Below are positions 7,752 to 44,507 of a stretch of DNA of 64,000 bases, in pieces. The number at the start of each line of letters is the position of its first letter. The first letter of the stretch is position 1. The DNA comes from a bacterium. Lineage in GTDB: Bacteria > Bdellovibrionota_C > UBA2361 > SZUA-149 > JAQTWB01. A program made the translations under genes and the position numbers. Where the stretch lies: positions 124,001 through 188,000 of the forward strand of contig JAQTWB010000001.1 in NCBI GenBank assembly GCA_028689495.1, in the 5' to 3' direction. The notes under the pieces were generated by a model. The model was given only the letters and a program-made list of their open reading frames with translations. It was not told the DNA's origin and searched no databases.

Positions 7752-7756
7752 TTACT

Positions 7757-23188: not shown

Positions 23189-23225
23189 TAAAGGTTAACT
23201 AAAAGTAGAGATGGAGGAGAGAGAC

Positions 23226-24005
23226 ATGAGCGAGGAAAAGCCCCTATTTTCCGAAAGTGATTCCGGACGACATGAGGAGGTTAAGCCGAGAAGTGCAGCT
23301 GGTTCAAGAGCGAAAAATCAGACAGTGATGTTGACGCCGGAAATGACGGGTCAGGTCCGCGCAATGTTGAACCGTGACCCTGATTCGTCGGCGGCGATTA
23401 ACCAGGTTATGTCCGCTGCTTCCTGGGAGAGGCCGGGTCAGGCGGCGGCCCCGGTTGTTCCGCGCTCTGATGCAAGTGGGCAGTCTATAACTCAGGAACA
23501 TCCATCTCGGGTGCCGGTCCCCCCCTATGTCGCTCCCTCAAGGCAGGTTTCTCCGGTTCAGGTAGCGGTTGCTCCGCCTGTTGTCGGTGTGGGTACTGGT
23601 GTGTTTGCGCAAGGCATGAGGACTGAGGGCATTCAGGTTATTGCACATGGTAAGTCCTCTCGTCTTGTCGGTTTTTTGGTTAGTTATGATTCCGATGAAG
23701 ATGGGGAACTTTGTCCATTGAGGTTTGGACGTTGGTTGGTGTCATCGCAAGCTGTGGATCAGGGAAGTTATATATTGATTGAAGAGGAAACAATATCTCC
23801 ACTTCATGCGATTATTCGTGTTGGAAAAGATGGACGGATTCAGGTTCTCGATCAACTTTCCGAATATGGTACGGCAGTGACCAAGGCGGGGGAGGATGAA
23901 GAGGAAGAGATCAGTGGTGCCATGGTCGAAGTTCATCATGGTGATATTGTTCGTTTTGGGAAACGGCGATTCGTTGTGGTGATTATTCCTACGACATCGG
24001 AATAG
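23226..24005 (+). CDS. FHA-domain protein with disordered N-terminal half
   Basis: 'GRWLVSSQAVDQGSYILIEEETISPLHAIIRVGKDGRIQVLDQLSEYGTAVTKAGE…VHHGDIVRFGKRRFVVV'. Paralogous to 39197-40366. Confidence 0.8.
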   Translation: MSEEKPLFSESDSGRHEEVKPRSAAGSRAKNQTVMLTPEMTGQVRAMLNRDPDSSAAINQVMSAASWERPGQAAAPVVPRSDASGQSITQEHPSRVPVPPYVAPSRQVSPVQVAVAPPVVGVGTGVFAQGMRTEGIQVIAHGKSSRLVGFLVSYDSDEDGELCPLRFGRWLVSSQAVDQGSYILIEEETISPLHAIIRVGKDGRIQVLDQLSEYGTAVTKAGEDEEEEISGAMVEVHHGDIVRFGKRRFVVVIIPTTSE

Positions 24006-24073
24006 AGGCAGGCAGAGCTCAACGGAGTGTCTTTGGGCAGGGACTGAACTATTAGCGGAGCGTATCGTTCTAT

Positions 24074-25609: not shown

Positions 25610-25813
25610 TCATGAGCGGCTGAATATGCGGACGGCAAATTAGCGAGAATTTTTATCGGCTTATTTGGAGTCTTTTTTATCTGCAGGCCGGGCGAATCCT
25701 TGTTATTGCTGAATGTGCGTAGCCCAATTGCTTGTTGCTGCATTTTTTTGTGACGTTGTCAGATTTGCCGCATCTTAAATTCGGTAACATGGAAAAACAT
25801 TACTTGGACTTAT

Positions 25814-27109: not shown

Positions 27110-27222
27110 AAAAAGAGGCTAGTGGGAGAAAAGTTCCTGTGCTAGCGTAAAAAAAGCTAAAGAAAATTTTAGTTATAGCCGAAGAATGCTCTGGGTGTTT
27201 TCGGGGTTTTTCGTGGCTCGGT

Positions 27223-27238
27223 GCCCTTCGGGGCTTTT
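27223..27238 (+). terminator. Putative terminator between tadZ and the Flp pilin gene
   Basis: GCCC-TTCG-GGGC-TTTT. Confidence 0.5.
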
Positions 27239-27294
27239 GTGTGGATAGTCCCGCAACTGGTTTCCGGGAGCGGTCAGTCAAAAAGGGAAAGAAA

Positions 27295-27486
27295 ATGGAA
27301 AAAGAAATGGTAAATGTAGTTGAGAAGACAGAGGAAAAGGAAGAAGGCGCATCGATGGTTGAGTATGTGCTGATGGCTGCTCTAGTATCAGTTGTGGCAA
27401 TTACTGCGATTACTTTCCTCGGTCAGCAGACCAGCAAAACATTCAGCCGTATTGGTTCGGATGTTGAGGCGGCTAACAACACATAA
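27295..27486 (+). CDS. flp: Flp/Fap-type pilin (Tad major pilin candidate; ORF track start 27241)
   Basis: 'KEEGASMVEYVLMAALVSVVAITAITFLGQQTSKTFSRIGSDVEAANNT'; G/A(x)4EY prepilin motif. Confidence 0.88.
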   Translation: MEKEMVNVVEKTEEKEEGASMVEYVLMAALVSVVAITAITFLGQQTSKTFSRIGSDVEAANNT

Positions 27487-27510
27487 TATTTCAGATGAGT
27501 TGATAAAAAA

Positions 27511-27533
27511 CAGGGCTTCGGCCCTGTTTTTTT
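27511..27533 (+). terminator. Rho-independent terminator after the Flp pilin gene
   Basis: CAGGGC-TTCG-GCCCTG-TTTTTTT. Confidence 0.88.
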
Positions 27534-27539
27534 GTTTGC

Positions 27540-27590
27540 ACTGCTCGCACTTTAGTTTTTCCGATCCACAACACCTCATTCCCGAGCAGT
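27540..27590 (-). repeat. 51-bp dispersed repeat family B, copy 2
   Basis: Reverse complement reads ACTGCTCGGGAATGAGGTGTTGTGGATCGGAAAAACTAAAGTGCGAGCAGT; same length and TIRs as 22040-22090. Confidence 0.75.
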
Positions 27591-27973
27591 ATATTGGTCT
27601 TCGGTCGCATCCGCTGGCGCGGCTGCTTCGATATACCGCCTCAAAAAACAGCATAAGCTCTCGTCTCTCATATTCTCAGTAATCCTGAAAGTTTGTTCTG
27701 CCCATACCCATTCATATTTGCACCATTAAACATCCTTGCCGCGTCTAAATAAACACTGGGAACGGTATTTTCGGGATGCTGATACGGCATTTCGCCACCG
27801 ATAGCCCATGGGAATGAATTTTGCTCAAAAGTAAGAATAAGCAAAATATCGTTTAAGTTTGTTGGCAGACAATGCCGATTTTCAGAATAGTGATGATAAC
27901 CGACCAACGCAGAAAATAGATCGAGTTGAACTATATACTGTTCTGTTAAGGTCAATTTTGGGGAAAGGATACA

Positions 27974-28906
27974 ATGGCAACGGCATCTCGTTTTGGCGCA
28001 AGTCCTTCACGGAGCGGTTATAACAGCAAGGTTCGCCTGTTGATAGCTAGTCTTCTTGGGGTGATTGTCATTCTTGTCGGTACAATCGTGTACGTGATTA
28101 ATCAGATGGCGGCGCCCAAACCGGAGACGGCACCTGAAGTAGCTGCGACACCGGTAGAGGACTCGGGCCCATTAAAAAATATGGTTAAGATAGTTGTCGC
28201 TGCACAACGAATCGAAGAAGGGCAAAAGATAACTCCGGATATGCTGGGTGTTCGTGAAGAAGATTTTTCACGTATGCCTTCCGGTGCCTGGAGAGACATA
28301 AATATGCAACATCTGATTGGCAAGTATGCAACGGCGATGATTGCAGCGAATATGCCGATTCTGAAAGAACAACTGGCAGATGCGCCACCGTCTCAAGATT
28401 TGGAAATACCGGCGGGTTACCGAGCTGTGACTATTACAGTGGATGCCAGAACAGGAGTTGAAGGTTGGGCTAAGCCAAACAGTCGAGTCGATGTAAACTG
28501 GACTTTTGTCGATTCTGACAAGAAGACAAAGGTCCACACAATTGTAAGATTCGTTAAAATTCTTTCGGTGGGTGGTGCAACCAATTCTCCGGGTCAGAAG
28601 GCTGCAGTTGGTAGTAATCAACCGACAACTGTGACGTTGCTTGTCACAGAAGAAGATGCAAGAAAAATTGAGCTTGCCAGAAATCTTGGATCGCTTTCAT
28701 TGGCGTTAGTAGGCAATACCGAAACGCCCTCAGGATTCAATTCTGACGCTCCGTCTACTATTGATGATATTCTCGGTAAAAAAGCTGAAAGTGGTATCAC
28801 TGAAGATGATATTGATGGAGTTGTTTACCTGCCTGATCCTGATACAGGAAAGCAAATTAAAATGATTTTGGTGAATGGGAAATGGGTTAGAGACAAGTCA
28901 TACTGA
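27974..28906 (+). CDS. cpaB: CpaB/RcpC-like Flp pilus assembly protein (SAF domain)
   Basis: N-terminal TM; 'VVAAQRIEEGQKITPDMLGVREED', 'PAGYRAVTITVDARTGVEGWAKPNSRVDV', 'TLLVTEEDARKIELARNLGSLSLAL'. Confidence 0.85.
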   Translation: MATASRFGASPSRSGYNSKVRLLIASLLGVIVILVGTIVYVINQMAAPKPETAPEVAATPVEDSGPLKNMVKIVVAAQRIEEGQKITPDMLGVREEDFSRMPSGAWRDINMQHLIGKYATAMIAANMPILKEQLADAPPSQDLEIPAGYRAVTITVDARTGVEGWAKPNSRVDVNWTFVDSDKKTKVHTIVRFVKILSVGGATNSPGQKAAVGSNQPTTVTLLVTEEDARKIELARNLGSLSLALVGNTETPSGFNSDAPSTIDDILGKKAESGITEDDIDGVVYLPDPDTGKQIKMILVNGKWVRDKSY

Positions 28907-28922
28907 GTGACGATGGATAATA

Positions 28923-28948
28923 AATGAGGCTGAACGCTCAGCCTCATT
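28923..28948 (+). terminator. Hairpin/terminator candidate after cpaB
   Basis: Perfect 11-bp stem AATGAGGCTGA-ACGC-TCAGCCTCATT. Confidence 0.65.
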
Positions 28949-29004
28949 TGCATTATCACCTCTTGGTCAGTGAAATCACATAAGGTTGTAGTTAAGGAAT
29001 TTGT

Positions 29005-30483
29005 ATGAGCACAAACGATAGTTCAAGTCTCCGAGGGCTTTTTTCGACAAGGGACAAGCAGGGCGAAGCTGAAGTCAAACCGACCAGGGAGTCGGAAGTT
29101 AACCAGACTTCAAGTTCTGCCGATTCGGAATCTCAGGTTGTTTCTGCAAATAATTCAAATCGGGCGGTTCAGGCAAGGAATGCTTCACGAGCCAAACTTT
29201 CCGATGTCGCGAAAATGGTGATGCGGGAGGCGAGAAAGGAGCTCGGAAGTCATGATATGCAGTCTGCCGGTGGGGACATTTCTGAGTCAGCGATTGCTCA
29301 GGCGGTAGACCGAGTCTGTAAAAAACGAGTGCTTTCCATAAACGATATTACTCGTGCGGATGTCATTGTCCACCTGAAACGAGACCTTTTGGGGTGGGGT
29401 GTTCTTCAGCCACTGATCGATAACCCTGAAGTAACTGATATTCATTGTTATGACCATCAGACTGTAGTTTTACAGCGAGGGAAGATAAGTGAGACAACAG
29501 GGCTTCACTGGCCGACAGCCGAAGCGTATGCCACATTTATTGACCGAATCTTATTTCGTTTAGGTAAGAGTCTTTCAACTCAACAACACACAGTTGACGC
29601 TTCGTTTCCTGATGGTAAACGAGTCTGCGCTGTACATCAGAGTGTATGTGGGGCGCGTGGTCCTCTTCTAACTATCCGTGTTCCTCGAATTCAGGAGGTA
29701 ACTCTTGAGAGCCTTGTGGCCTATCAGGTTGCGCCACCATTAATCGTTAATTATCTGGCCGCATTGATTCGTACCTGTGAGCATACATTTATGGTTGCAG
29801 GTGAAACTGGCACAGGGAAAACGACCTTGATGCGCTGTCTTGGAACCCAGTTTCGACCGGACGAGTCGGTAATTGGCGTTGAAGATACTCCGGAGTTGAA
29901 CTACCAGCATCCTTACTACAGGAGTTTGGTTTCCCGTTATGCGAACACTGAAGGAGTTGGTGAAGTCACACTGCAGGAACATATCAAAACAACTCTGCGG
30001 CTCTGTCCCTCCCGGGTGATTCTTGGGGAGATGCGTAGCCCAGAAGCAGCTGAAGCCTTCCTTGAATCTGCCCAGACAGGGCACTGCGGTATGTCGACGG
30101 TGCATGCGCGTAATGCTCGAGAGACTTTGACCCGTTTGGAGAGTTTACTAGGCCGGGCACAGCGAGGTGTGAATATTGATATCATACGTCAGCAGATTGC
30201 TCTTGCCATGTCAGTGGTAATTTGGATGACGAGAGAAAAGTCGACAGGTCGGGTCCGTTTGGCTGAGGTTATTGAAGTTGGTAATTTTGTTGAGGGCAAC
30301 ATTCAGGTGCGACCTATGTTCAAGTTGGTCGAAGAAGGAGAAAATCCAAGGTGGGAAGTTCAGTCTTGGTCGAGTACGTTTGAAGAAGTGCTGCAAGGTG
30401 CTGGGATATTCTTGGGTAGCGCCCCACAATTTCTTTCGTTTTCTCATTTACCTTCAGCTAATCGCGGTGAAGGTGGAAGGTAG
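29005..30483 (+). CDS. cpaF: CpaF/TadA-type secretion ATPase
   Basis: 'LLGWGVLQPLIDNPEVTDIHC', 'TFMVAGETGTGKTTLMRCL', 'VIGVEDTPELNYQHP', 'RVILGEMRSPEAAEAFLESAQTGHCGMSTVHA'. Confidence 0.95.
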   Translation: MSTNDSSSLRGLFSTRDKQGEAEVKPTRESEVNQTSSSADSESQVVSANNSNRAVQARNASRAKLSDVAKMVMREARKELGSHDMQSAGGDISESAIAQAVDRVCKKRVLSINDITRADVIVHLKRDLLGWGVLQPLIDNPEVTDIHCYDHQTVVLQRGKISETTGLHWPTAEAYATFIDRILFRLGKSLSTQQHTVDASFPDGKRVCAVHQSVCGARGPLLTIRVPRIQEVTLESLVAYQVAPPLIVNYLAALIRTCEHTFMVAGETGTGKTTLMRCLGTQFRPDESVIGVEDTPELNYQHPYYRSLVSRYANTEGVGEVTLQEHIKTTLRLCPSRVILGEMRSPEAAEAFLESAQTGHCGMSTVHARNARETLTRLESLLGRAQRGVNIDIIRQQIALAMSVVIWMTREKSTGRVRLAEVIEVGNFVEGNIQVRPMFKLVEEGENPRWEVQSWSSTFEEVLQGAGIFLGSAPQFLSFSHLPSANRGEGGR

Positions 30484-30549
30484 AACTTTTATGCTCGAAC
30501 ACCATGGTTATCTGCGGTTTTGATTGATGGATATTTAAAAGGGGGAAGA

Positions 30550-31566
30550 ATGAGTATCGGATTAATTGCCATCCTTTTGCTTGGGCTTGCCGCAGTTATT
30601 GGGGTGATGGTTGTACTTATTGCTATTGGCAACGGACAAAGCATGGGCATAGGTGGTTCTTCTGCCGCGAGTGAGAATCTTCGCAACATGGTTCGGGCGC
30701 AGAGAGCGTCAATGAAGCCAGGAGAGGAGAAAAAGTTTCGTGCGGGGGAGCTTGCGGTAGCGGCCGCAGCTGAATCCAATGTTGTGGCAAAGAAGACATC
30801 CAGTACCGGGAAGTTGGCGGTCGAAAGGCAGCTGCGTTACGCTCATCTTCCCATTTCGGCGAGCCATTTTTATATCTTTCGTTTTGTTGTGTCGGTGATT
30901 CCACTAATTTTTGCCGCCCTGAAGGCTCCAGAAGCATTGCAATTCCAATTGATGTTTCTTTTTGGGGTTATTCCATGGATTATGTCTAACACCGCCTTAA
31001 GTTACCTCGTTAACCGCCGTGTGAATATGTTTGACGCGGATTATCCCGTATTGCTCATGTCGTTTGTAAGTTTGCTTAAAACAGGCATGAATACCATTAC
31101 CGGCCTTGAGGCGGCTGCTAAGGGGCTGGATGAAACCTCGTTAGTTCGTGCCGAAGTGATGTTGTTGGTTGAGCGACTAAAATTAGGATTGACCGAGGAC
31201 CAGGCTGTTAATGCATTTGGTGAAGATATTGCCCACCCAGAGTTAGATCTATTTGTTCAGAGTTTATTGCTTAGTCGTCGTGTTGGCGGTCAGCTTTCTG
31301 CAACTTTGGAGCGGCTGGCGCGTCAGGTGAGGAAACGACAACAGTTTCGTAAGCAGGCAGTTGCTGCAGTAGGGATGGAAAGATCCTCTATTGTATTTAT
31401 TGCTTCCATTATGAGTGGATTGCTTGGATTTATAACTTATCGTTCGCCTGAGCTACTGTTGGGGGCACTAAATGATCCTTTAGGAATGTCGATCGTCGGT
31501 TGGGCAATCGTAACAATTGTTCTTGGTTTTCTCTGGTCTCGATCGGTTACTAACATCAAAATTTGA
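30550..31566 (+). CDS. tadB: TadB-like type II/IV secretion F-domain membrane protein (ORF track start 30520)
   Basis: 'FDADYPVLLMSFVSLLKTGMNTITGLEAAAKGLDE…LFVQSLLLSRRVGGQLSATLERLARQVRKRQQFRKQAVAAVG' T2SSF-like; follows cpaF. Confidence 0.85.
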   Translation: MSIGLIAILLLGLAAVIGVMVVLIAIGNGQSMGIGGSSAASENLRNMVRAQRASMKPGEEKKFRAGELAVAAAAESNVVAKKTSSTGKLAVERQLRYAHLPISASHFYIFRFVVSVIPLIFAALKAPEALQFQLMFLFGVIPWIMSNTALSYLVNRRVNMFDADYPVLLMSFVSLLKTGMNTITGLEAAAKGLDETSLVRAEVMLLVERLKLGLTEDQAVNAFGEDIAHPELDLFVQSLLLSRRVGGQLSATLERLARQVRKRQQFRKQAVAAVGMERSSIVFIASIMSGLLGFITYRSPELLLGALNDPLGMSIVGWAIVTIVLGFLWSRSVTNIKI

Positions 31567-31591
31567 ACTTTTACCTTCGCGGAGCGCGTCA

Positions 31592-32524
31592 ATGAATACT
31601 TTTTTGATTGTTGGGTTGTCGATTGTTGGTCTTGTTTTGATCCTGGCGATTGCGTTTGTTTTGTTGAGGCCAGGTGAACTGAACTCGAACCAGCTCCGTA
31701 GTCTTCTCGGCAATGACGATAATGCCTTTGAACAGGCATTGTCGTCAAAAGAGAAAATGGCCCAAGAAGAGTACGTTGACAGTATCAAAAAAGCTTCGGG
31801 CGTCTCCCAGGCCAAGGCGGGACAAGAAGATTTAAGTACCCTGTTGTTTAAGGCGGGCTACTTTTCATCTGATGCAAAGACACGCTTCAGACTTTTTTCG
31901 ATAATAGCCATGGTGATCATGCCCATAATTTTGTTCGCACTTGCTGCGTTTTTGTTGAAAGATCTAAAATTGGGAGCAGTGTTTGCTCTTTTGGGTCTTG
32001 TTATTGGTTATTCATTGCCTAGCTCATATTTACAGCGAGTCATCACGCGTCGGCAGGAGGATTTAATGTACTACCTACCTCTGGTGATAGAGCAGATTTC
32101 CATTGGCGTCAGTAGTGCACTTGATATTGGGCCTTGTATTGCAATGATCGTTGAAACATCGAACGATCGGGATTCACATAACCCAGTGACCGAAATGTTT
32201 GTGCATGTTGAGAAGTTAATCAGGTCTGGTCTTAATCTCGAGGATGCACTTGTTGAAGTCGGTCAGTTAAGCGGAATGAATGAAATCAAGCATGCTTTTA
32301 TGTTTCTGTCTCAGTGCGCTCGTCATGGTGGTGAGTTGTCCAAGCAACTTCAAGAACTGGCAGATGCGGTGATGGTGCAGAAACAGGTTAAGGTTGAGGA
32401 TCGTATCGCACGACTACCGGTAAAAGCGACAGGGCCATTAGGGATGGTATTTATTGGCTTTTTGATGTTGTTACTTGCAGGTCTCTTCACTCGTCTGAAA
32501 GTTGCACTTACTGCAATGCAGTAG
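31592..32524 (+). CDS. tadC: TadC-like type II/IV secretion F-domain membrane protein (ORF track start 31517)
   Basis: 'YYLPLVIEQISIGVSSALDIGPCIAMIVETSN…FLSQCARHGGELSKQLQELADAVMVQKQVKVEDRIARLPVKATGPLGMVFIGFLMLLLAG'. Confidence 0.85.
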   Translation: MNTFLIVGLSIVGLVLILAIAFVLLRPGELNSNQLRSLLGNDDNAFEQALSSKEKMAQEEYVDSIKKASGVSQAKAGQEDLSTLLFKAGYFSSDAKTRFRLFSIIAMVIMPIILFALAAFLLKDLKLGAVFALLGLVIGYSLPSSYLQRVITRRQEDLMYYLPLVIEQISIGVSSALDIGPCIAMIVETSNDRDSHNPVTEMFVHVEKLIRSGLNLEDALVEVGQLSGMNEIKHAFMFLSQCARHGGELSKQLQELADAVMVQKQVKVEDRIARLPVKATGPLGMVFIGFLMLLLAGLFTRLKVALTAMQ

Positions 32525-32842: not shown

Positions 32843-35017
32843 TTGATTACTTTTACAGAGATACGCAATCTGGGCAGTTATTTCACAAATCAGCCTGGTT
32901 TGCGGTTCTCAATGCCTCTTTTTTTGTCGGGGTTCTTTCTCGTCGTCCTGGCGTTGTTTTTTCTTCCGATACCCCCTCGATTGCTCGATTTTCTTATTGC
33001 AACAAATCTTTTTCTGTCTTTGCTAATTTTTTATCGCGCTCTGTTTCTTGAGGGATTTTCCGGGTTGACCTCCTTTCCTATTGTGTTGCTCAGCGCAACT
33101 TTGTATCGCCTGGCGCTGAATATTTCCTCAACCAGACTGATACTGACAGACGGGGTAAAAGGTCCAGGTGCTGCGGGTCAGATTATCGAATCGGTCGGAT
33201 TTGTTGTCGTCCGCGGGGACTTTTGGGTAGGAATAATCCTGTTTTCAATTATTGCGCTTGTTAACTATCTGGTTATTGCTCGTGGCGCAGCTCGAGTGTC
33301 TGAGGTTGCCGCACGGTTCGCCTTGGACGCACTGCCAGGTCGTCAGATGGCAATTGATTCTGATCGATCAGCGGGGATAATTACGGCGTATCGTGCCAGC
33401 CAAGAGAGGGAAAAACTGGATGTAGAATCAAGATTTTTTGGTGCTATGGATGGCGCGATGAAGTTCGTGCAGGGTGATGCTATTGCCGGATTTTTGATTA
33501 CATTCATAAATTCATTTGCTGGTGTTGGATTGGGAATTTCCAGAGGGATGGATTTTAGCCAGTCGGTAAATACTTTTGGTATTCTTACGGTGGGAGATGG
33601 TCTTGTCACATTGATCCCATCGTTACTGGTTGCGGTTGGTGCGGGATTTGTTGTCAGTCGAGTGAATAATAGCGTTGGTGGGGGTTATACCGGATTGCAG
33701 TTGTTTTACGACCCTCGTGCTGTTGTTATGGCGGGGTTTGCGCTTCTATGTCTAATATTGCTGCCCGGATTACCGATTATGCCATTTGCTCTGGTCTTGG
33801 GGGTTGTGCTTATTGGTGTGCGTAGTCTTCGTAAGGTTGAATCAATTAAGCGAGATATTGGTTTGGTCGGGGTATCTGGTTCTGATCGAACTATATCGTG
33901 TCGAGTTTCATCGTCTCTTTGGAATGCCGGACAGTATTCTGCTGAATGCAATCGATTGTATCCGGCAATACAGCGTGAGTTCCTCAACGAGGTGGGTATT
34001 CCGCTGCCTGCCCTGGAGCTTGTAAAAGATGATACTGTTCCTGACGGGTATGTTTCGATATCTGTAGGAGGTGGAGCGTGGGTGAGGAGGTTCGCTGATG
34101 AGAGGGAAACAACTGTGATGGTGGCGCCGCAGTTGTTGCGAGCGATAGGGGCACAATTAACAACCTATATTTCCTATCCGCTAAAAGGCTATCTGCTGGC
34201 TAAGGTCAGTGACCGTGTCATGAGCAATCTCCCTGCCGACCTCTGTTTGTCTTCATTGGAGGTATCCCTTCAGAGTATCAAAGAGGACTATCTTTTCTTT
34301 CTGCGCAACTCGATTGGTTATGACGATGTTAATAACTATTTAAGCGCATATGAAACGCACGCATCATTTAGTGTGAACAGGTTGCGTGCGGATGAACTGT
34401 GTACACGTGGTGAATTACTTTTATTAATAAGAAGGTTGTTGATGGACGGAGTTCCTCTGGTTCAAGGAGGCCTGATTCTTGATGCTATTGTGATGGCACT
34501 CGAAAATTCGGATTCTCGTGAATTTCAAACGGATAGTCAGTCTCTTTACTTTGCGGTTCGGTCAGGGGTTATTCCGCTCATTCTTGAGGCGTTGTCGTAT
34601 GCGGCCGAGCCGCTTTCGGTTATAATTGTTGGCCCTGAAGTAGAAGATGAGCTCATACAGAATTATGAGATGAGTGAGGGTAGGATGCAATTGTCACTTC
34701 CCTCTAGCCCCGTTAAGAAAATACTGTCTCGTGATTTTGATCGAGTTATTAGACCGGTTATTGAGAGAACCTCCAGCTCGCTGGTGGTTGTCATTGCGGA
34801 AGAATTGGTATCTTTGCTTGCAGGATATATCGCAGTCACATTTCGCGTTTTTGGTCGGGTAATGGTGATATCTCCAAAAGAGGCAAACTCGCTAGGTATA
34901 TATGAGGTTGTGACAGTAGTGCACAGGTCTGAGTCGCCACACTCAATTGGGCGCAAAATACCACAAGATATTTCAAGTGTAGCAGGCTATGAGCTGGGGG
35001 CACGCAGCGATAGCTGA
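32843..35017 (+). CDS. sctV: Type III secretion export-gate protein SctV (FHIPEP/FlhA family)
   Basis: 'SFPIVLLSATLYRLALNISSTRLILTDG…AGQIIESVGFVVVRGDFWVGIILFSIIALVNYLVIARGAARVSEVAARFALDALPGRQMAIDSD…FVQGDAIAGFLITFIN', GDGLVTLIPSLLVAVGAG. Non-flagellar call rests on neighbours SctJ and SctQ. Confidence 0.93.
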   Translation: MITFTEIRNLGSYFTNQPGLRFSMPLFLSGFFLVVLALFFLPIPPRLLDFLIATNLFLSLLIFYRALFLEGFSGLTSFPIVLLSATLYRLALNISSTRLILTDGVKGPGAAGQIIESVGFVVVRGDFWVGIILFSIIALVNYLVIARGAARVSEVAARFALDALPGRQMAIDSDRSAGIITAYRASQEREKLDVESRFFGAMDGAMKFVQGDAIAGFLITFINSFAGVGLGISRGMDFSQSVNTFGILTVGDGLVTLIPSLLVAVGAGFVVSRVNNSVGGGYTGLQLFYDPRAVVMAGFALLCLILLPGLPIMPFALVLGVVLIGVRSLRKVESIKRDIGLVGVSGSDRTISCRVSSSLWNAGQYSAECNRLYPAIQREFLNEVGIPLPALELVKDDTVPDGYVSISVGGGAWVRRFADERETTVMVAPQLLRAIGAQLTTYISYPLKGYLLAKVSDRVMSNLPADLCLSSLEVSLQSIKEDYLFFLRNSIGYDDVNNYLSAYETHASFSVNRLRADELCTRGELLLLIRRLLMDGVPLVQGGLILDAIVMALENSDSREFQTDSQSLYFAVRSGVIPLILEALSYAAEPLSVIIVGPEVEDELIQNYEMSEGRMQLSLPSSPVKKILSRDFDRVIRPVIERTSSSLVVVIAEELVSLLAGYIAVTFRVFGRVMVISPKEANSLGIYEVVTVVHRSESPHSIGRKIPQDISSVAGYELGARSDS

Positions 35018-35041: not shown

Positions 35042-37531
35042 ATGATGGCTGAGCAAAAAACATCAATTCTAGACGATAATGATTTTCGTGATGCGTTTGA
35101 TTTGTTCAAACCAACAGCGGGCTCACCAGTGGCGCAGAGTTATGATATCGCGGAAAAATCCAGTGGGCGTAAGGGGCTTTTGTGGCGGTTTCGTACTTCT
35201 TCCGGGCCTGAGGAGAGTGAACGTTTTCTCAAGAGAATGATACTGGTGTCTGGTTTTGAAGATGGAGTTCCGGAAATTCTTTATCATGGTGTCGATGGAC
35301 TAGGGCATTGTGTTGTTGCGCAGACCGCAAAAGAGGGCACAGCAAGTATACTTTCGGTAATGTCATCTGAAGAAGTGGTGGATCTCTTTCGTCAGCTTGT
35401 TCTTCTTGTATCGCGATTTCATCGGCATGGGGTGACAGTTGGTCTGTTAGAAGCGTCATCGTTTGTTATAGATGGGACCGGTGAACCACAGCTTCAGTGG
35501 TTGATGGGGCCTCGCAAGATAGGAAAGGCACTTCTCGAGAAATGTATGAGCGAGGGAAGTGAATTTGTTCACTATCGTTCTCCAGAAGAGAGAGTCGGTA
35601 TGATGGGTGATATGAGGTCTGATATCTACGCATTGGGAGTTTTAGGATATCGAATGCTGTCTGGCACTTATCCTTTTCTTGCTGATACCATATCAGAGGA
35701 TATGAGGCCCCAACAGCTTGAATCACCTTCTTCGGCGTTGTTGTCGGTTAGACCGTGGGTGGACGAGATTGTCTGGAAGTGTCTTCAGCATTCTTCTCGT
35801 GATCGATTTCAGAATGCCGAAGAAATGTTGAATGCAATTGACGATGGATTGTCCAATGGTGTGGTCTCCGGGATAACTACTGGCTGGAAGCAAAGTAAGG
35901 TAGTTGTCCGTGTAGAAGGTGCGGGTAAGTCTAAACCCAAAAATGGCCAGGATGGAGCACAATATGACGGTAAGCGTGCTATTTATGCAAGGGGGTCCAC
36001 TGACCTTGGTCAAACACGAAAGCGTGATGCAGCGTCGGGTAGCAACGTTGAGTTCGGAGCAAGGAATTGGAAGCTGCTAGCCTTATTTGCCGCAGCTGTA
36101 TTTTTGGCTGTTTTGCTGGTTGTAGTTGCTACGTCTCTGCAAAAATCACCCGAAAAAAGTGGTCTGGACGTTCTAATTGAAACACTTGGACCAGATGTTC
36201 GTTTAGCGGCGGTGAAATTAATTGATAGTGAGACTTCAGCTGAAGATAAAGATATCTTGATAGCGGAGATTGGCGCTAGCGACGATACTGGTGCAATGAA
36301 CTTCCTGAGTGCCTGGTCCGCATCTCCAGATGGTTCTCATTATCGAAATAAAATTGAATCTTCACTTCTGGAGCGTCTTGAGAGTAGTGGTTGCAAAAGG
36401 ACGGCAGAACAGTTGAGGCAGTGGCAGCGGGATCAGTATGGGTATGTCTATGACAAAGCGCAGCTTCGGCTGAGTTTTTCACTTGGTCGCTCATGTGACA
36501 ATCGTTTGCCGCTTGAGTTCCGTGTTCGAGAGCTTGACAATCTCAGAGAATCAAATCGTAGCTTTGCATTGCGCCTTGTCGGTGCTTTGGCTCTGGATGG
36601 GATTGATGGTGAAGAGTATATACCTGTTTTACGTAGATTTCTCTCTGATACGATTCCGATAAGTGAACTTGATGGCAAATCTCTTCCGGCGATGGTTCTG
36701 GCTTCTAATGATTTGGCAATTGCTTTTGGTGAAGAGGCAATGTCGCAAGTATCCGAACTAAATAATTCCGAGTTACGCTGGTTGATTGTTAGAACAGCAG
36801 AAATTCGCTCTTTATACTTCAAAAAACTTGTAAACGTGTTTGCCAATAAGGAGGAATTGCCTCCATTTCAGAAGCTTTTTCTTAAAATGATTGATGGGGG
36901 AGATAATGGCGAACCAGTTACACCGGAATTGCAGCTGTCCCTGGCGCGTGCAGCTTTTGGTCGCCTCCTCGATGACGATGTGAAAGCTTTGGCTAATTGG
37001 TACTCGCTTGATGCTGAAAAAGCATTATGTGCTGCATCGGCCATTGCTTCGGATCCGGGTCTTTCATTGTTTGCTTTTGAATCATTGGCAGGACGCTCCG
37101 TGATTCAGGAGCCGGGAAAGAGTCTTGTCGCCTGGGGCAAGAGGGGGGCATGGGAGAAAAGGCAGAGAATTGCAAAGCCGGTTGGTATTTTATGTCTTTA
37201 TGATATCGCGAGCGAAAGTCAGATTAATTATGCTCTTGATGAGATTATGCCTATTGCCGGCCAGGGGGTCTTTTTTGAGACTCTCAAGGAGAGTAAGATA
37301 CCGAAATTACACCTGAAAGCCGTTGAACGATTTGGCCAGATGTTGCCTTCTGCAGACTTGCTTGACATGTTGCATGGAGAGAATCCGGAGCTGAAGAAGC
37401 TGGCTCTCCGCTCACTTGCCGGAAGGAATGAAGTTCAGGTTTTGAGGCTTATTCTACGTGCTTATGAGAAAGAAGATAGTGAAGAAATTCGTGAACTATA
37501 CCGAAAGTATCATTGGGTGACAGCACGATAG
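35042..37531 (+). CDS. Degenerate Ser/Thr kinase (predicted pseudokinase) with TM segment and long C-terminal HEAT-like region
   Basis: Kinase fold remnants ('YRSPEERVGMMGDMRSDIYALGVLGYRMLSGTYPF', 'RDRFQNAEEMLNAID'), but the HRDLKPEN region reads 'GVTVGLLEASSFVID' and DFG reads 'QWLMGPR'; TM 'LLALFAAAVFLAVLLVVVAT'. Confidence 0.75.
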   Translation: MMAEQKTSILDDNDFRDAFDLFKPTAGSPVAQSYDIAEKSSGRKGLLWRFRTSSGPEESERFLKRMILVSGFEDGVPEILYHGVDGLGHCVVAQTAKEGTASILSVMSSEEVVDLFRQLVLLVSRFHRHGVTVGLLEASSFVIDGTGEPQLQWLMGPRKIGKALLEKCMSEGSEFVHYRSPEERVGMMGDMRSDIYALGVLGYRMLSGTYPFLADTISEDMRPQQLESPSSALLSVRPWVDEIVWKCLQHSSRDRFQNAEEMLNAIDDGLSNGVVSGITTGWKQSKVVVRVEGAGKSKPKNGQDGAQYDGKRAIYARGSTDLGQTRKRDAASGSNVEFGARNWKLLALFAAAVFLAVLLVVVATSLQKSPEKSGLDVLIETLGPDVRLAAVKLIDSETSAEDKDILIAEIGASDDTGAMNFLSAWSASPDGSHYRNKIESSLLERLESSGCKRTAEQLRQWQRDQYGYVYDKAQLRLSFSLGRSCDNRLPLEFRVRELDNLRESNRSFALRLVGALALDGIDGEEYIPVLRRFLSDTIPISELDGKSLPAMVLASNDLAIAFGEEAMSQVSELNNSELRWLIVRTAEIRSLYFKKLVNVFANKEELPPFQKLFLKMIDGGDNGEPVTPELQLSLARAAFGRLLDDDVKALANWYSLDAEKALCAASAIASDPGLSLFAFESLAGRSVIQEPGKSLVAWGKRGAWEKRQRIAKPVGILCLYDIASESQINYALDEIMPIAGQGVFFETLKESKIPKLHLKAVERFGQMLPSADLLDMLHGENPELKKLALRSLAGRNEVQVLRLILRAYEKEDSEEIRELYRKYHWVTAR

Positions 37532-37549
37532 CGAATTGGAGATTTAACT

Positions 37550-39151
37550 TTGTTTGCACTTGAGATTGATTTTCATGACGGCGTTAGCGCCCGAGAGGTG
37601 ATGATGGTGCGTAGGCCATTTGCTATTGTGGGCGGGAGTGAGTCCGCGCATGTAGTGATCGAAGGCACCAGTGGTTTGAATGAAATTCGGTTTACGAGAG
37701 GGCTCGACGGAAGTTTTCGTTGTGAGTATTTGCGTGGAGGAATTGTTCAGGGGACCATGACTGAGGTTATCACTGGTTCAGGGGTTTTTAGAATTGGGGA
37801 GGTCAGCTTGCGGTTAACTGCTTTAGATTCTGACTTACGCAATGACCCTGAGCTGCCTCCGGATGTGGCTGCAATAAACGTCCTTCGTCGTGCCCTTGCT
37901 TTCCCGAGCCCCAAATTTCCGGCACTGGTTGTTCTTGGGAAAAATCCAATAGTCTATTCGTTTGCGTCGGACGATATTGTTCTTGTTGGACGTTCGAGAC
38001 GCTGTGGCCTTCGACTTGATTCGGCAGGAGTTTCAAGTGAGCACGCTCAAGTAGGGTACGATAACGGGATGTTTTGGGTGGAGGACCTTGGAAGCACTAA
38101 CGGAACTTATATTTCAGGAAAGCTGATTGCGGGAAGACAGTATCTGCCAGTGGGAGAGTTTGTGCAGATAGGTGGCGATTGTTTTCTTGCCGGAGTGTCA
38201 CAAGAGTTGGAATACGAGCAGGTGACAAGACAAGCCAATCAGCAAATTGCGAACATTCCGGAAGTCTCTGCTGATTATCCACGCATATTGACGATGTCGG
38301 AACATGTGCAGCCGCGTCAACTAAAGGTTGGCAAGAAGAAAAGGGTTACAGTAGGTAGAGATTCGGGTAGTGACTTATGGGTTTCAGCAAGTCATGTGTC
38401 ATTCAATCATTTGGAGATATTTTACAACTCACAATCTGCCTCTGCGGTTACTGATACCAGTTCCAACGGAACTTATCTAAACGGTATGCGATTGCCTCGT
38501 GGCGAATCATATGCGTTGCCTCCCGGGCCGGTGGAAATTGATCTGCAGGGGGGAATTAAATTGATATTGTTGAATTCTGCTGAAGACGAAGAGTTATGGC
38601 AGCGAAGCACTGGCAGTGAGCACAAAGTGTCGGGGATTGAAGAGCAAGTTAGAGATATCGGCGATGACACTTTTCATGAAACGGGTGATGACAGCGGTCT
38701 TGCGGATAGTTTTGAAGATGGTTCAGGCTTTGAAAGCGCGGATCAACTTCTGTTTGAGGAAGACGATCCACGATATTTGGCAGAAGATGAATCTGATAGA
38801 GTTACTGACGTCTTTCGACATTTGTCGTCTGGGACAATTCAAGATTCCGGAGCCAAAGTTGAATCGGTAAATAAAGGGAGTACTTTTTATCAAGAGGTTC
38901 AACCCAGGGGTGGACAGCATGTTTCATCTTCAGCTGGAGATGTCGGGGAGATTACGGCAAAACCGTCTCCCTTTTTGTCTCAGGATGAATTTGAAGATTT
39001 TAGTGAAGATGCTGAACTTAGATCGACTACAGTTTTCGATGATGAACACGGGAACTATGGTTTGGGGAAAATGGGTCGAGTCATTCTTGTAACAGGTGTT
39101 ATCTTGCTCGTCGGTTCTTTAGGCGTAATGGCCGTTGTATTTTTACAGTAG
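37550..39151 (+). CDS. Three tandem FHA/FHA-like domains, acidic linker, C-terminal tail-anchor TM; candidate SctD-position protein
   Basis: FHA2 'VLVGRSRRCGLRLDSAGVSSEHAQVGYDNGMFWVEDLGSTNGTYISGKLI', FHA3 'VTVGRDSGSDLWVSASHVSFNHLEIFYN…VTDTSSNGTYLNGMRL', weaker FHA1 at the N-terminus; TM 'VILVTGVILLVGSLGVMAVVFLQ' at the extreme C-terminus. Confidence 0.82.
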   Translation: MFALEIDFHDGVSAREVMMVRRPFAIVGGSESAHVVIEGTSGLNEIRFTRGLDGSFRCEYLRGGIVQGTMTEVITGSGVFRIGEVSLRLTALDSDLRNDPELPPDVAAINVLRRALAFPSPKFPALVVLGKNPIVYSFASDDIVLVGRSRRCGLRLDSAGVSSEHAQVGYDNGMFWVEDLGSTNGTYISGKLIAGRQYLPVGEFVQIGGDCFLAGVSQELEYEQVTRQANQQIANIPEVSADYPRILTMSEHVQPRQLKVGKKKRVTVGRDSGSDLWVSASHVSFNHLEIFYNSQSASAVTDTSSNGTYLNGMRLPRGESYALPPGPVEIDLQGGIKLILLNSAEDEELWQRSTGSEHKVSGIEEQVRDIGDDTFHETGDDSGLADSFEDGSGFESADQLLFEEDDPRYLAEDESDRVTDVFRHLSSGTIQDSGAKVESVNKGSTFYQEVQPRGGQHVSSSAGDVGEITAKPSPFLSQDEFEDFSEDAELRSTTVFDDEHGNYGLGKMGRVILVTGVILLVGSLGVMAVVFLQ

Positions 39152-39196
39152 AGACAGCAAATATGATTTTAATTGAAAGTGACATTGGAGGTAAAT

Positions 39197-40366
39197 ATGT
39201 CTGATAAGGATGAATTGGCGTTTGTACGCTGTCCTAGTTGCAATAGTCTGATCCCATCGCGCGCTAAGCGCTGTCGAATGTGTGGTTTCCTTTTGTCTGA
39301 TGCCGCACCGGTTGAAAACGAAGATCCGGAAAGAAAGAGTGGAAGAGTATATCAAAAAACAGTCTCTCTGACCCCTCAGGAAGTTGAAACTTTAAAAGCC
39401 GGTATCGAATCGTCGGACGATGTTCCGCAGCCTGTTCGCACTTCTGAGACCAAACTTCCAGTTGAGCCTTCGTCAGGAACGCCTGTAAGTGAACAAGTGA
39501 CTGAAGAGAAGCGAGGTGGGTTTCGGTTGGCTGGTCGTAGTATTGATACCGTAATTGACGCAGTGGAAGTTAAGCCACCTCAAGATTCTAAGGTTGAATC
39601 CGGGAAGGACAGAGAGGGTGCGAAGGAGCCGGCGCCTTTAAAGCGTTCCGAGAGACAGGGGGTGGCAGGCCCTGCCCAGAGAGGCGATGAACCCATAGTA
39701 GAAGATCGGCAGGGAGCAGAACATCTTGAGACTGGTGATTCAGAAGTCCGTCAGCAAGATGATGGCCGTAGTCAGTTTGAACGTGAGCGGCGTGAACGTG
39801 CAAAGGAACGAAAGAGGAAAAAGAATCGCGACAGGCAACGGCAGAGTTATGATGAGTCTGCTGTGGTTGAGAAAGAATCAGTTGTAGAAGAAGTGCAAGC
39901 ACGAAAACCGAATGTGTTCTCAGATGCGGTGTCAAAAGAGCGGAAGGAAGAATTTCATCCGAAGCAAAAATTTCCTAGGGAGGTAAGAGTGGATGCGGAA
40001 AAAACACATGAGATGTCCTCTGACGGTGAACTTGTTGGTTGGCTCGTTAGTTATGAACGTGATTCACGAGGAATTGCTACAGAGCTTCGCACGGGAAGGT
40101 TTATGGTAACTCAAGAACGTTTGAGAAGTACAGATATGCTAATTAATCATTCGTCTGTATCTACTCCTCATTGCATGTTGAAGGCTGTTGCTGGTCGAGG
40201 CATAGAGATTGGTGATTTGATGAGTGAAAATGGAACTTATGTAAAAAAAGCTGGCGAGCAATCCTATACCAGGCATTCGGATCCAGTTGTGGTCACCAGT
40301 GGCGACAGTGTTAAGTTTGGCTCTTATGAGGTGTTGATTTGCCTTGTCCCGTCGCGACGAAAGTAG
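39197..40366 (+). CDS. Zinc-ribbon plus charged linker plus FHA-domain protein (ORF track start 39173)
   Basis: 'VRCPSCNSLIPSRAKRCRMCGFLL' CxxC-x(n)-CxxC; C-terminal 'GRFMVTQERLRSTDMLINHSSVSTPHCMLKAVAGRGIEIGDLMSENGTYVKKAGE…TSGDSVKFGSYEVLICLV'; strong RBS GGAGG. Confidence 0.8.
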   Translation: MSDKDELAFVRCPSCNSLIPSRAKRCRMCGFLLSDAAPVENEDPERKSGRVYQKTVSLTPQEVETLKAGIESSDDVPQPVRTSETKLPVEPSSGTPVSEQVTEEKRGGFRLAGRSIDTVIDAVEVKPPQDSKVESGKDREGAKEPAPLKRSERQGVAGPAQRGDEPIVEDRQGAEHLETGDSEVRQQDDGRSQFERERRERAKERKRKKNRDRQRQSYDESAVVEKESVVEEVQARKPNVFSDAVSKERKEEFHPKQKFPREVRVDAEKTHEMSSDGELVGWLVSYERDSRGIATELRTGRFMVTQERLRSTDMLINHSSVSTPHCMLKAVAGRGIEIGDLMSENGTYVKKAGEQSYTRHSDPVVVTSGDSVKFGSYEVLICLVPSRRK

Positions 40367-40372: not shown

Positions 40373-41278
40373 TTGGCTTTAGGAGCTTGTATGGTGGGTT
40401 CGACAATCGCTTACGGGAATTTTTCTCGGGCAAGGAAAACAACTTCTACGAGGTTGTATTGTCGATTAATGTTGTGCCTGTCGCTGATTTTTTTGTCAGC
40501 TTGCGCTGAGCAGGAGTTGACAGTTCGTTTGACGGAGCGGCAATCCATTTCTTTACTTGTTTCACTTGCTGACCAGGGGATTGATGCACGCCGGCAATAT
40601 GATGATCTTTCCGGAACTTACGATATTTATGTGCCGGAATCCAGTTATAGAGAGGCAATGTCAGTTTTGGATTCAAGTTGGCCAAAACCTGAGTTCGAGG
40701 GGCAGATTGATAATCTGTTGAAGGATGAGTCATTTTTCCCTGGGTTCTCGCAGAACAGACCAGGTAAAGACGAAAAACTGTTGTCGCTACAGGTGGAACG
40801 GTTGTTATCGGCTGTTCCGGGCGTAGAGGAAGTCAAGGCTCTTGTGCGATTTCCGGCAGCGGACGGGCCGTTGAAGTTGAGAAGAATAGCTTCAGATAAT
40901 CCAATTCGTTTGGCAGTAGTTGTCAAATCAACTGTTGGAAACGATAAAGTAGAAGGTTTGAGGGAGCGTCTTCAGAAGCTTCTCCAGGGATTTTTTGAGT
41001 CAGAGAATGATCATGGTCCGAAGACTTTAGTGCAGATTTTTATGGTAGAGAGCGGCCGAACTTCCAGTGTAGGCGAGAGAGCCTTGTCTATAGGTTCTGT
41101 TTGGCCATTTTCATTTCGAGTCCTAGAGGGCGATCGGGGGATAATGTCATGGCAGTTTACCGTATTTGGCTTGGGTCTGGTAATCCCAGCCTTTGTAGTT
41201 GGGTTTGTTCTCGGACAACGCGGATATTTAAAGCCGCTTTCTACGGATCCCAGTGGGAAAGATGACAATCAGAGGTGA
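40373..41278 (+). CDS. sctJ: Type III secretion inner-ring lipoprotein SctJ (YscJ/FliF family)
   Basis: Lipobox 'IFLSAC', 'ISLLVSLADQGIDARRQYDDLSGTYDIYVPESSYREAMSVL', 'LLSLQVERLLSAVPGVEEVKALVRFP', C-terminal TM 'FGLGLVIPAFVVGFVLGQRG'. Confidence 0.85.
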   Translation: MALGACMVGSTIAYGNFSRARKTTSTRLYCRLMLCLSLIFLSACAEQELTVRLTERQSISLLVSLADQGIDARRQYDDLSGTYDIYVPESSYREAMSVLDSSWPKPEFEGQIDNLLKDESFFPGFSQNRPGKDEKLLSLQVERLLSAVPGVEEVKALVRFPAADGPLKLRRIASDNPIRLAVVVKSTVGNDKVEGLRERLQKLLQGFFESENDHGPKTLVQIFMVESGRTSSVGERALSIGSVWPFSFRVLEGDRGIMSWQFTVFGLGLVIPAFVVGFVLGQRGYLKPLSTDPSGKDDNQR

Positions 41279-41282: not shown

Positions 41283-41507
41283 ATGAGCGAAGATCAGTTG
41301 TTGAGTGAGCTATCTTCTGCCGAACGTGCGATGGTAGCGGTCGCTGTTTTGCTTGATGGGCATGATGCTGTATCTTTTTTGGGGAATGATACTGTTCGAG
41401 GAGAGGCTTTGAAGAAGGCAGCAAAAAGTTTAGTTGCGTTAGCTCCGGATCTACGTCTGCCATTTGTTGGAACGATCCTTCGTAATGCATCTAAAGATTT
41501 GGGGTAA
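41283..41507 (+). CDS. Small protein between sctJ and sctQ, unknown (ORF track start 41253)
   Basis: 'MSEDQLLSELSSAERAMVAVAVLLDGHDAVSFLGNDTVRGEALKKAAKSLVALAPDLRLPFVG'; RBS-like AGAGGTG upstream; operon position. Confidence 0.6.
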   Translation: MSEDQLLSELSSAERAMVAVAVLLDGHDAVSFLGNDTVRGEALKKAAKSLVALAPDLRLPFVGTILRNASKDLG

Positions 41508-41523
41508 TAGTCAGGAGAAGGTC

Positions 41524-42573
41524 ATGCAGGTTGAAGCAAAACTTGAGCTCGATAACCAGAGATTCACTGAATGGGAGCCACAGGAGGAACTTGATTCTGT
41601 GACCGACAATCAGATTATGTTTGGTAGAGGGTTATATTGTGTAAATCTTGATCGGCTATTTCCATTGTTTTCCGAGCACTGGTTAGCATTGTTCAGTGGT
41701 CTTGGTGTTGATATACGATTTAATCATTCACATGTTATTGAGACATTCCCCACTCGTGGAGTATCAGTGTTTTCATGTCGCATTAATGGGGAGGTTCAGG
41801 TATTTGGGGTGGACCAGCGGCTTACGCAAGTATTGTCCGAACTTGTCGCACCGCAATCCAGCCCGGCTATAAAACAAATTATTTTCGATTATTTTGTGCG
41901 AAGATTTTATTCTGTGATGTCCAGTACGTGGTGTGGTTCTGTTCCATTGCGCATTGAGTATTGTTATTCGGGTAGCACCGGTGCAGTTGATGTGGCTGGG
42001 GTTCTTTCAACTGAATTGATTGTTGGTAACGCAGCATTTCCTGTCTATTTTGGACTTGGCCCGGAATTCGCTTCTTTGATTGATGAAGCATCTGTTGCGT
42101 CAGCACATTTGGAGCACGATCTGGCGGTAGTTATTGGTGATAGTGATACCGTAGTAATTTCGGTTGAGATGATGGAGGTTATTGATACCGGCTTATCTTT
42201 GATCGACCTGGTTGGTAGCAGTTCGGTAGTGTCATTTGAGGTGCCAAACTCCTATCGTGTCATTCTTTCTGTTAATGAGGTTCCTGTTGGAGTAGGGATG
42301 CTTAAGCAGTACGGTGGACATTTTGTAGTTCATGTTAGTCATATACAGAAAAAATTTCGTCATTCTGTTGCTGGCAAACGGACCACTATTGAGATCGGAG
42401 CAATTGAGGTCCCCAGAGATGAGGCGGGAAGGTATTTGCAGTCTGGAGCGGTAATTCCGCTGCAAAATCAAATCTCTGATAACCTTTCATTAATTTGCGA
42501 TGCTGAGCACTGCGGTGAGGTCAGATTAGGTGTCATTGATGGACAGATGGCAGTGAAGTTTATTCAGGAGTAG
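41524..42573 (+). CDS. sctQ: Type III secretion C-ring/sorting-platform protein SctQ (SPOA-like)
   Basis: C-terminal SPOA-like strand pattern 'IEIGAIEVPRDEAGRYLQSGAVIPLQNQISDNLSLICDAEHCGEVRLGVIDGQMAVKFIQE'; downstream of sctJ. Confidence 0.7.
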   Translation: MQVEAKLELDNQRFTEWEPQEELDSVTDNQIMFGRGLYCVNLDRLFPLFSEHWLALFSGLGVDIRFNHSHVIETFPTRGVSVFSCRINGEVQVFGVDQRLTQVLSELVAPQSSPAIKQIIFDYFVRRFYSVMSSTWCGSVPLRIEYCYSGSTGAVDVAGVLSTELIVGNAAFPVYFGLGPEFASLIDEASVASAHLEHDLAVVIGDSDTVVISVEMMEVIDTGLSLIDLVGSSSVVSFEVPNSYRVILSVNEVPVGVGMLKQYGGHFVVHVSHIQKKFRHSVAGKRTTIEIGAIEVPRDEAGRYLQSGAVIPLQNQISDNLSLICDAEHCGEVRLGVIDGQMAVKFIQE

Positions 42574-43211
42574 TGGTGGACATACTCTGTTTGGATTGTT
42601 TATTGCCATGTGTTGGGGATACCAAGGGGTTGATGGACTCGGCTGGTCGATTAGCCGGACGTAGTGAGAGTCTTAATATGCTTTCGGTTGATAGTTCAGA
42701 ATTCTCTGTTGAAGAAGATGAACGTGAACAGTATCTTGTGCATACTGCGATTTCTCAGGCAATGAGCTGGATTGCCGCTATAAATGGGCGTATCGATTTT
42801 TTGCCCGATATTGCTGCATTGAACACAATGGATTTAACAAGTCTTTATGCTTTAGCCAGGCTTTATTTTCGTAATGGATATATTGTTACATCTGAGCGGG
42901 TATTCTCCGGATTGCAAATATTGGATAAGGAAGGTGAGACGCCAGCAGATTTAGGTTGCGGTGTCGTAGCTCTTTGTTCTTCCAAGTTTGAAGAAGCTAT
43001 TGCATCGTTTCATAAGTGCTTAAGTAATGGACATTATTTGATTGAGAGTCAGCTTGGGTTGACATTGTCATATATTGGGTTGTCGGAAATGTCTCGTGCG
43101 GTAGTTGCTTATGACGAAATTACGGAAGGATTGGATATCACTACCATGAAAGTTGATATACGCCCTTTATATGCTTTTGTCGGGTCTATTCTATCTACGG
43201 GTGCTCGCTGA
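42573..43211 (+). CDS. TPR-type protein, possible SycD/LcrH-like class II T3SS chaperone
   Basis: 'LTSLYALARLYFRNGYIVTSERVFSGLQILDKEG…GCGVVALCSSKFEEAIASFHKCL' TPR-like; start overlaps the sctQ stop. Confidence 0.5.
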   Translation: MVDILCLDCLLPCVGDTKGLMDSAGRLAGRSESLNMLSVDSSEFSVEEDEREQYLVHTAISQAMSWIAAINGRIDFLPDIAALNTMDLTSLYALARLYFRNGYIVTSERVFSGLQILDKEGETPADLGCGVVALCSSKFEEAIASFHKCLSNGHYLIESQLGLTLSYIGLSEMSRAVVAYDEITEGLDITTMKVDIRPLYAFVGSILSTGAR

Positions 43212-43284: not shown

Positions 43285-43602
43285 TCAGTCACTATCTTCG
43301 TCAGTGCTGGCTGCTTCTATCGTCATACGCACTGCATCTATAATAGATTTTTGCTGCGACTTCGGAATTTTTTGGCGACGAAAGAAGTCTTTGGCCTCAG
43401 CTTCCAGTATCTGGAGCATTTCCTTTTTATTGTTGCGATTTATTGGAACAGTTGAGAACTTGGCATTGCTGGAGATGGAGTCGACTTTAAGGGCCTTTCT
43501 GATAGCACTAGTAGCCTCGGAACGCTGTGTCGCTGTGATACTGCTTCCTGCAGTGATTGACTGAGCCGAACCGGATTTTATTGAATCAATTTTTTTTGTC
43601 AT
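43285..43602 (-). CDS. Small Ser/Thr-rich protein, unknown; downstream of the sigma-like gene
   Basis: 105-aa ORF 8 nt after the stop of the minus-strand sigma-like gene; no family recognised. Confidence 0.5.
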   Translation of the reverse strand: MTKKIDSIKSGSAQSITAGSSITATQRSEATSAIRKALKVDSISSNAKFSTVPINRNNKKEMLQILEAEAKDFFRRQKIPKSQQKSIIDAVRMTIEAASTDEDSD

Positions 43603-43610: not shown

Positions 43611-44507
43611 TTAATAATGATAGAGTGCGAAAGTGGTAATTGTGGGTAATGGCGCCAGTAGCAGTAGTAAAGAGAGAATGTCGATTGCATGGCTGCGGAT
43701 TTTTTTCTGAAAGATAGAAAAAGGTGACTTCCAGTTTTCCTTACCATAGGTCTCGGCTAGCGGCCTTAATGTCGGGCGGATTTTTAAGGCTTTACCAGTG
43801 CTATGGTTGGAATTGTTTTTCATCGATTCTTCGAGAAAAACAAGAATGGTGCTGTGCTCACGTATAATCGTTAGTTCATCTATCCCCCATTCGCTAGCTA
43901 GAGTGCGCATGGATTTTCCGATCCAGTATATCTCCCAAAGAATTGTTTGGTGAATTGGGTTCAAATGACTGATTTGAGTCAACATTTCCTTATATTCAAG
44001 GATATCATCGGGCTGATTTTTTTGGTCTTCGGCGATAGCCAGGAGGCTAGCTCCTGCCAGAAGACTTTTTACTGCGATCTGTAAGCCATCACCGGCAGAA
44101 TCAGTGGAGGTATCTATTGATCCTGAATGAAGTTCGGGGAAAAGTTGGAACAACTTTGCTGATATTTCACGCGCTTGATCACTCGCTTCGCTGTTACTTC
44201 CTGTTGCTCTACGCCAGTTTTTTGATTTTCGTGCCTCTTCAGTCGCCGCTTCGTGGATTCGGCGTCGTGCATAAGCGCGAAAGGGAACACCTAGTGAATC
44301 GTTGTAGCGCGTAGCGCAGAAAAGGAGGCCTTCGTATGCTCCACCGTCGAGGCCGTCCATTTGCCAGTCAAGGTTCCAGGAACGAGCGACATTGCGAGCG
44401 ATTGCTTCTGCCCAGCCAAGATTTTCGCTGACCAGCTTCTCAATCAATTCCGGATCGTTTTTAGTGGTGACTTGCGCGTCTGCATCGTTATTCATTTCGT
44501 CGGACAT
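43611..44507 (-). CDS. Sigma-70-like protein with predicted C-terminal TM helix
   Basis: Region-2-like 'AIARNVARSWNLDWQMDGLDGGAYEGLLFCATRYNDSLGVPFRAYARRRIHEAATEEARKS'; region-4-like 'LNPIHQTILWEIYWIGKSMRTLASEWGIDELTIIREH'; C-terminus 'IDILSLLLLLAPLPTITTFALYHY'. Confidence 0.7.
   Translation of the reverse strand: MSDEMNNDADAQVTTKNDPELIEKLVSENLGWAEAIARNVARSWNLDWQMDGLDGGAYEGLLFCATRYNDSLGVPFRAYARRRIHEAATEEARKSKNWRRATGSNSEASDQAREISAKLFQLFPELHSGSIDTSTDSAGDGLQIAVKSLLAGASLLAIAEDQKNQPDDILEYKEMLTQISHLNPIHQTILWEIYWIGKSMRTLASEWGIDELTIIREHSTILVFLEESMKNNSNHSTGKALKIRPTLRPLAETYGKENWKSPFSIFQKKIRSHAIDILSLLLLLAPLPTITTFALYHY

Follow-up and report, generated by a model that had tools for sequence, protein, structure and literature searches.

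Introduction

FliA and WhiG, the sigma-28 factors, are the best family and fold matches for P0001 and P0003, two neighbouring genes in a stretch of 64,000 nucleotides of bacterial DNA (hereafter, the window). Like P0001, these factors partner a T3S machine, and in one genus the P0001 operon is preceded by a promoter of the sigma-28 type. P0001 is unlike them in lacking the canonical 2.2 motif, in carrying a family-specific C-terminal box and, in the window's order, in ending in a hydrophobic tail. FlgM, the exported anti-sigma-28 factor, offers a similar comparison for P0002, the gene downstream of P0001: both are small proteins with a disordered N-terminus and a helical C-terminus, and each has a sigma-28-like gene and T3S genes as neighbours, but the P0002 family has no profile similarity to FlgM. 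SigO and RsoA of Bacillus subtilis resemble P0001 and P0003 in being two sigma-like genes that lie together, but P0001 and P0003 each encode regions 2 and 4 in most members.

To our knowledge, the membrane-tethered sigmas known so far belong to the ECF type and have anti-sigma parts fused to them. ECF sigmas with transmembrane C-terminal extensions (IutY; ECF48, ECF52 and ECF53) resemble P0001 of the window's order in having a membrane segment, putative in P0001, on the C-terminal side of the sigma domain. Their extensions can reach 400 residues and include domains of the anti-sigma-like or zinc-finger kind, whereas P0001 has only a short tail, and the relatives of P0001 are sigma-28-like and T3SS-linked. 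Proteolytic release of a membrane-tethered ECF sigma has been shown for IutY (PMC8999054), and by analogy membrane-held P0001 may possibly be released by proteolysis.

We give about an even chance to the reading in which P0001 is a T3SS-linked alternative sigma, restrained by P0002, acting alongside P0003 and tail-anchored in the window's order. P0001 would be a highly diverged descendant of the FliA/WhiG (sigma-28) type, tied to the adjacent non-flagellar T3SS. P0001 and P0002 would be made from one operon, with P0002 binding and restraining P0001, and P0001 would operate side by side with the neighbouring sigma P0003. The tail anchor of the window's order would hold the protein at the inner membrane, where local access to RNA polymerase or release of P0001 would be gated. 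We infer RNA polymerase binding, membrane insertion and control of T3SS genes by P0001 as parts of this reading. If it is true, P0001 is a sigma-28-like factor beside a T3SS with a simple tail anchor, gained on one branch and lost twice, and the set of a sigma, a small partner and a second sigma by an injectisome is a candidate for secretion–transcription coupling in an uncultured lineage.

P0001 is a divergent sigma-70-like protein

P0001 encodes a protein of 298 residues on the minus strand (43611..44507) and starts with ATG. An earlier note on the window had given exactly this open reading frame, without its strand, and had described the product as sigma-70-like, with regions 2 and 4 recognisable and divergent in sequence; the frame and the sigma-70-like assignment are borne out, and region 4 is supported less clearly than region 2. 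The NCBIfam models sigma70-ECF (TIGR02937) and FliA_WhiG match all 33 aligned orthologues, with best E-values of 2e-10 and 1.2e-8, respectively. P0001 itself matches TIGR02937 with an E-value of 6.5e-8 (32.4 bits, against a curated cut-off of 42.9) and scores 24.3 bits with TIGR02479 (FliA/WhiG), for which the curated cut-off is 189.6, placing it outside that family as curated.

Region 2 comprises residues 25–96 (44220..44435, minus strand), as indicated by Pfam and the alignment. The Pfam Sigma70_r2 model matches 32 of the 33 aligned orthologues and gives 19.5 bits on P0001 itself, below the 24-bit cut-off. Region 4 is more divergent: Pfam finds no region 4 in P0001 and finds it in only one of the 33 aligned orthologues, but a region-4-like helix-turn-helix with conserved R216, E217 and H218 (residues 184–230; 43818..43958, minus strand) is indicated by the alignment, the AF2 model and profile comparison. 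Specifically, the P0001 and P0003 family profiles align over 203 columns that span both sigma regions (probability 97%), and the AF2 model (mean pLDDT 83.6) has helices in the region-4 area. Region 4 is followed in the alignment by a family-specific box, K[VI]RPxL ... PFS (residues 242–263; 43719..43784, minus strand).

A Foldseek search with the P0001 model returned WhiG, FliA, sigma-32 and sigma-S as best matches, one only of them below an E-value of 0.001. The global TM-scores are low, as is to be expected where domains joined by flexible links are arranged differently, and the fold search therefore backs the family of P0001 and not a full-length superposition.

The P0001 family is monophyletic and constrained

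Of the 46 genomes of the window's phylum, 42 yielded the P0001 gene in a profile search, among them all 20 of high quality, with essentially one full-length copy per genome; in one genome (G005), the sole match is weak and may be another sigma. Beyond the phylum, the search gave only weak, ordinary sigma matches. Matches in named genomes come from metagenome assemblies or uncultured isolates, under labels such as Deltaproteobacteria, Bdellovibrionales and Oligoflexia, the sole exception being one weak generic sigma match in Caulobacter. Across the whole alignment, orthologues share 37–49% identity with P0001. In a tree with the genome's own FliA, RpoD and RpoS-like proteins, the P0001 family is monophyletic with a support of 100/100, and a stem of 6.56 changes per column separates it from every other sigma. 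Monophyly is thus clear; the exact placement of the family is unsure because the branches are long.

P0001 is a real, constrained family, for which fold, conservation, synteny and an order-specific tail are shown by computation. Such a history, with sharp divergence first and strong constraint afterwards, suggests a function that is changed but real. At the canonical 2.2 position, the xLIxxGxIGL residues of FliA and RpoD are swapped in the whole family for a conserved GLDGxAxEAL. The replacement of these core-contact residues, together with the extreme stem, speaks against the preferred reading and could reflect loss of classic sigma activity. P0001 might then be a sigma-fold protein that does not initiate transcription, serving as a decoy, as an anti-sigma partner or as a scaffold that binds, for example, P0003, P0002 or cytoplasmic parts of the T3SS. 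The very long stem with strong conservation after it, the poor region-4 scores, the constant company of a more canonical second sigma and the membrane tail in one order all fit such a protein, and the conserved new residues in region 2.2 favour a decoy more than expected, making that role a possible one. Nevertheless, the family's region 2.4 in the alignment, YARRRIHEA (2.3–2.4-like), and a recognition-helix-like segment are strictly conserved, as expected if the protein still makes contact with DNA or polymerase, and we regard a non-initiating P0001 as somewhat unlikely.

The hydrophobic tail is confined to one order

P0001 ends in a hydrophobic tail (residues 275–298; 43614..43685, minus strand), delimited by hydropathy, alignment and tree. 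The hydrophobic end reported in the earlier note is confirmed: the tail has 24 residues, and its best 19-residue Kyte-Doolittle window, sought within the last 60 residues, scores 2.09. Of the other called genes, 211 have no strongly hydrophobic stretch in the body of the protein, and seven of these 211 have such a tail. Among orthologues of the window's order, ten of 12 have the tail (scores 1.4–2.7), so its hydrophobicity in orthologues, which the earlier note had treated as decisive, withstands the comparison within the order; the tailed sequences are not independent, because tail membership tracks phylogeny. Elsewhere in the class, the tail is found in none of 29 orthologues, with scores never above 0.96; in one of the 29 (L060), the contig ends before the C-terminus.

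The absence of a tail elsewhere in the class means that membrane tethering, as the earlier note proposed it, cannot be the basic mechanism of the P0001 family. Proteolytic release, sensing of the secretion state and a decoy role, which the earlier note also put forward, would be conjectural. The tail is an added, putative anchor in one order and not the family's core function. It begins right after the class-wide PFS box, and the tail-less members of the class stop at about that point. Within the order, two members lack the tail; in the tree, L056 groups with the tailed L036, and L022 with the tailed L045 (the second pairing is weak, 81/56), and the tail is therefore probably ancestral to the order, with one gain at its base and two losses. 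Pfam and NCBIfam find no zinc-finger or anti-sigma domain in P0001; the ten tailed members thus join a sigma domain to a hydrophobic segment and are not of the ECF type with a fused anti-sigma.

A transmembrane helix in the tail is very likely in L042–L045 and L047, as predicted from their sequences, and is plausible, more weakly, in the window's P0001, L041 and L046; the window's tail has two prolines in it, and its hydrophobicity is no more than moderate. P0001 could instead be an ordinary soluble sigma, with a tail that is neutral, a degradation tag or a packing element. Its absence from the rest of the class and its two losses within the order would suit such a tail, as would its evolution between two close relatives, in which dN is 0.23 in the tail and 0.056 in the core (where dS is saturated). 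Against this, hydrophobicity is kept in the ten tailed members despite sequence divergence, and the tail dS of 1.46 is about sixfold above dN, indicating constraint on the tail, weaker than that on the core. We thus consider a soluble P0001 quite unlikely and retain the tail anchor as the preferred reading for this order.

P0002 is a constant downstream partner

P0002 (105 residues; 43285..43602, minus strand), a putative anti-sigma or T3SS-linked regulator on the evidence of synteny and AF2, follows the end of P0001 at a distance of no more than a few tens of bases in all 39 loci in which the contig continues. Members of the family have little sequence in common outside a helical hairpin at the C-terminus, in which a Glu-Ala pair is invariant. 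The AF2 model shows this two-helix hairpin with confidence after a disordered N-terminus, which is almost devoid of leucine, aromatic residues and cysteine. P0002 has no Pfam family and no relative among solved structures. On account of the constant operon partnership and this architecture, P0002 most likely binds and restrains P0001.

We tried FlgM as an identity for P0002 and rejected it: hhalign gives a probability of 0.2% against FlgM of the same genomes, in which the true FlgM is encoded elsewhere, away from P0002. A checkpoint analogous to that of FlgM and FliA, in which P0002 would restrain P0001 and be removed, perhaps by export, once the injectisome works, with the sigma membrane-anchored in one order, seems to us decidedly improbable.

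P0003 is a second sigma that accompanies P0001

P0003 (44885..45763, plus strand) encodes a second sigma-70-like protein, of the FliA/WhiG type. In 37 of 41 loci it is adjacent to P0001, though its orientation varies, and at three of the other four the contig ends. P0002 and P0003, which are absent from the earlier note, accompany P0001 more constantly than the tail does.

In the window's own proteins, Pfam gives a score for region 2 alone in P0001 and for region 4 alone in P0003. That P0001 and P0003 supply regions 2 and 4, respectively, of a single two-subunit sigma like SigO/RsoA, as this pattern and their permanent adjacency might suggest, is very unlikely, given that the scan of all orthologues finds region 2 in 29 of 32 P0003 proteins (and region 4 in 32 of 32), that P0001 keeps a region-4-like domain and that both proteins are full length.

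The genome of the window encodes further proteins of this kind. A P0003 paralogue lies elsewhere (L114; G000:C73:31090-31557; profile E-value 1.9e-61). The true FliA (246.7 bits) and another FliA-like sigma are encoded at G000:C38:62604-63272 and G000:C126:2588-3172, and the contig with the other FliA-like sigma also bears a FHIPEP fragment.

The locus converges with a non-flagellar T3SS operon

The earlier note placed P0001 convergent with a T3SS operon, and rightly so: plus-strand T3SS genes reach 43211, with the minus-strand P0002 intervening before P0001. In particular, the plus strand encodes SctV (FHIPEP; 32843..35017), assigned to a non-flagellar T3SS by family match, an FHA/YscD-like protein that is probably SctD (37550..39151), an SctJ-like inner-ring lipoprotein (40373..41278; TIGR02544, 9e-14), an SctQ-like C-ring protein with a FliMN_C domain (41464..42573) and, last before the convergent sigma operon, a T3SS chaperone-like protein with weak CdsG/SycD likeness (42573..43211).

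An ortholog survey near T3SS loci, which the earlier note had suggested, shows the same link in many families of the class, at about half of the loci. The chaperone-like gene is convergently downstream of P0001–P0002 in 19 of 40 relatives, and in ten of them SctQ comes next; at L053, the order is chaperone, SctU, SctR, SctQ, SctJ and FHA genes. At the remaining half or so of the loci, no T3SS gene lies near P0001 within the fetched DNA, partly owing to contig ends. FHIPEP proteins are present in all genomes of the class, at least one and usually several, and the presence of a T3SS therefore does not discriminate. Class genomes often have about three FHIPEP copies, one of which has a sigma-28-like gene nearby.

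Genes of other kinds adjoin the T3SS genes. PP2C phosphatase, FHA protein, Ser/Thr kinase and Tad-pilus-like genes (22211-32524) lie directly ahead of them, and further kinase-like and FHA proteins are encoded inside the operon (35042-40366); these genes may possibly represent phospho-signalling linked to secretion. Farther upstream, 4449-16613 encodes five successive large proteins (638–1100 residues) that are alike at the start (for example, AGxxVAAxLETAGxYxQSYxL) and have a common middle segment, MPYxQGxxLY...P. By their sequences, they look like a tandemly duplicated membrane-protein family.

A sigma-28-type element precedes the P0001 operon in one genus

In genus f13, the sequence (TT)AAGGTTT-N12-GCCGATA lies upstream of the P0001 operon, with unrelated spacers. 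AAGGTTT-N12-GCCGATA, or a sequence near it, is found upstream of the P0001 orthologues L025, L027, L029, L050, L051, L057, L058 and L059. Exact AAGGTTT-N11..13-GCCGATA has six matches in eight genomes, four of them before P0001; high scores at these sites from a motif trained on them are circular. The element is close to the E. coli FliA consensus, TAAAGTTT-N11-GCCGATAA, and P0001 itself is therefore probably transcribed by a sigma-28-type holoenzyme in f13. The element was not found upstream of P0001 in the window or in the window's order. We rejected it as a regulon marker: its exact matches are few, and the T3SS operons at these loci have no comparable site.

The genome G018 contains tandem families of proteins of about 150–240 residues (MPDPTTQKLTIAEYKEAQTKLSELM...) at L141, L146, L160 and L161. 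Two of the proteins were scanned with Pfam and gave no match. Each gene of these families is preceded by TAAAGTAAG-N-GCCGATA, and the families could be products of a sigma-28-type regulon.
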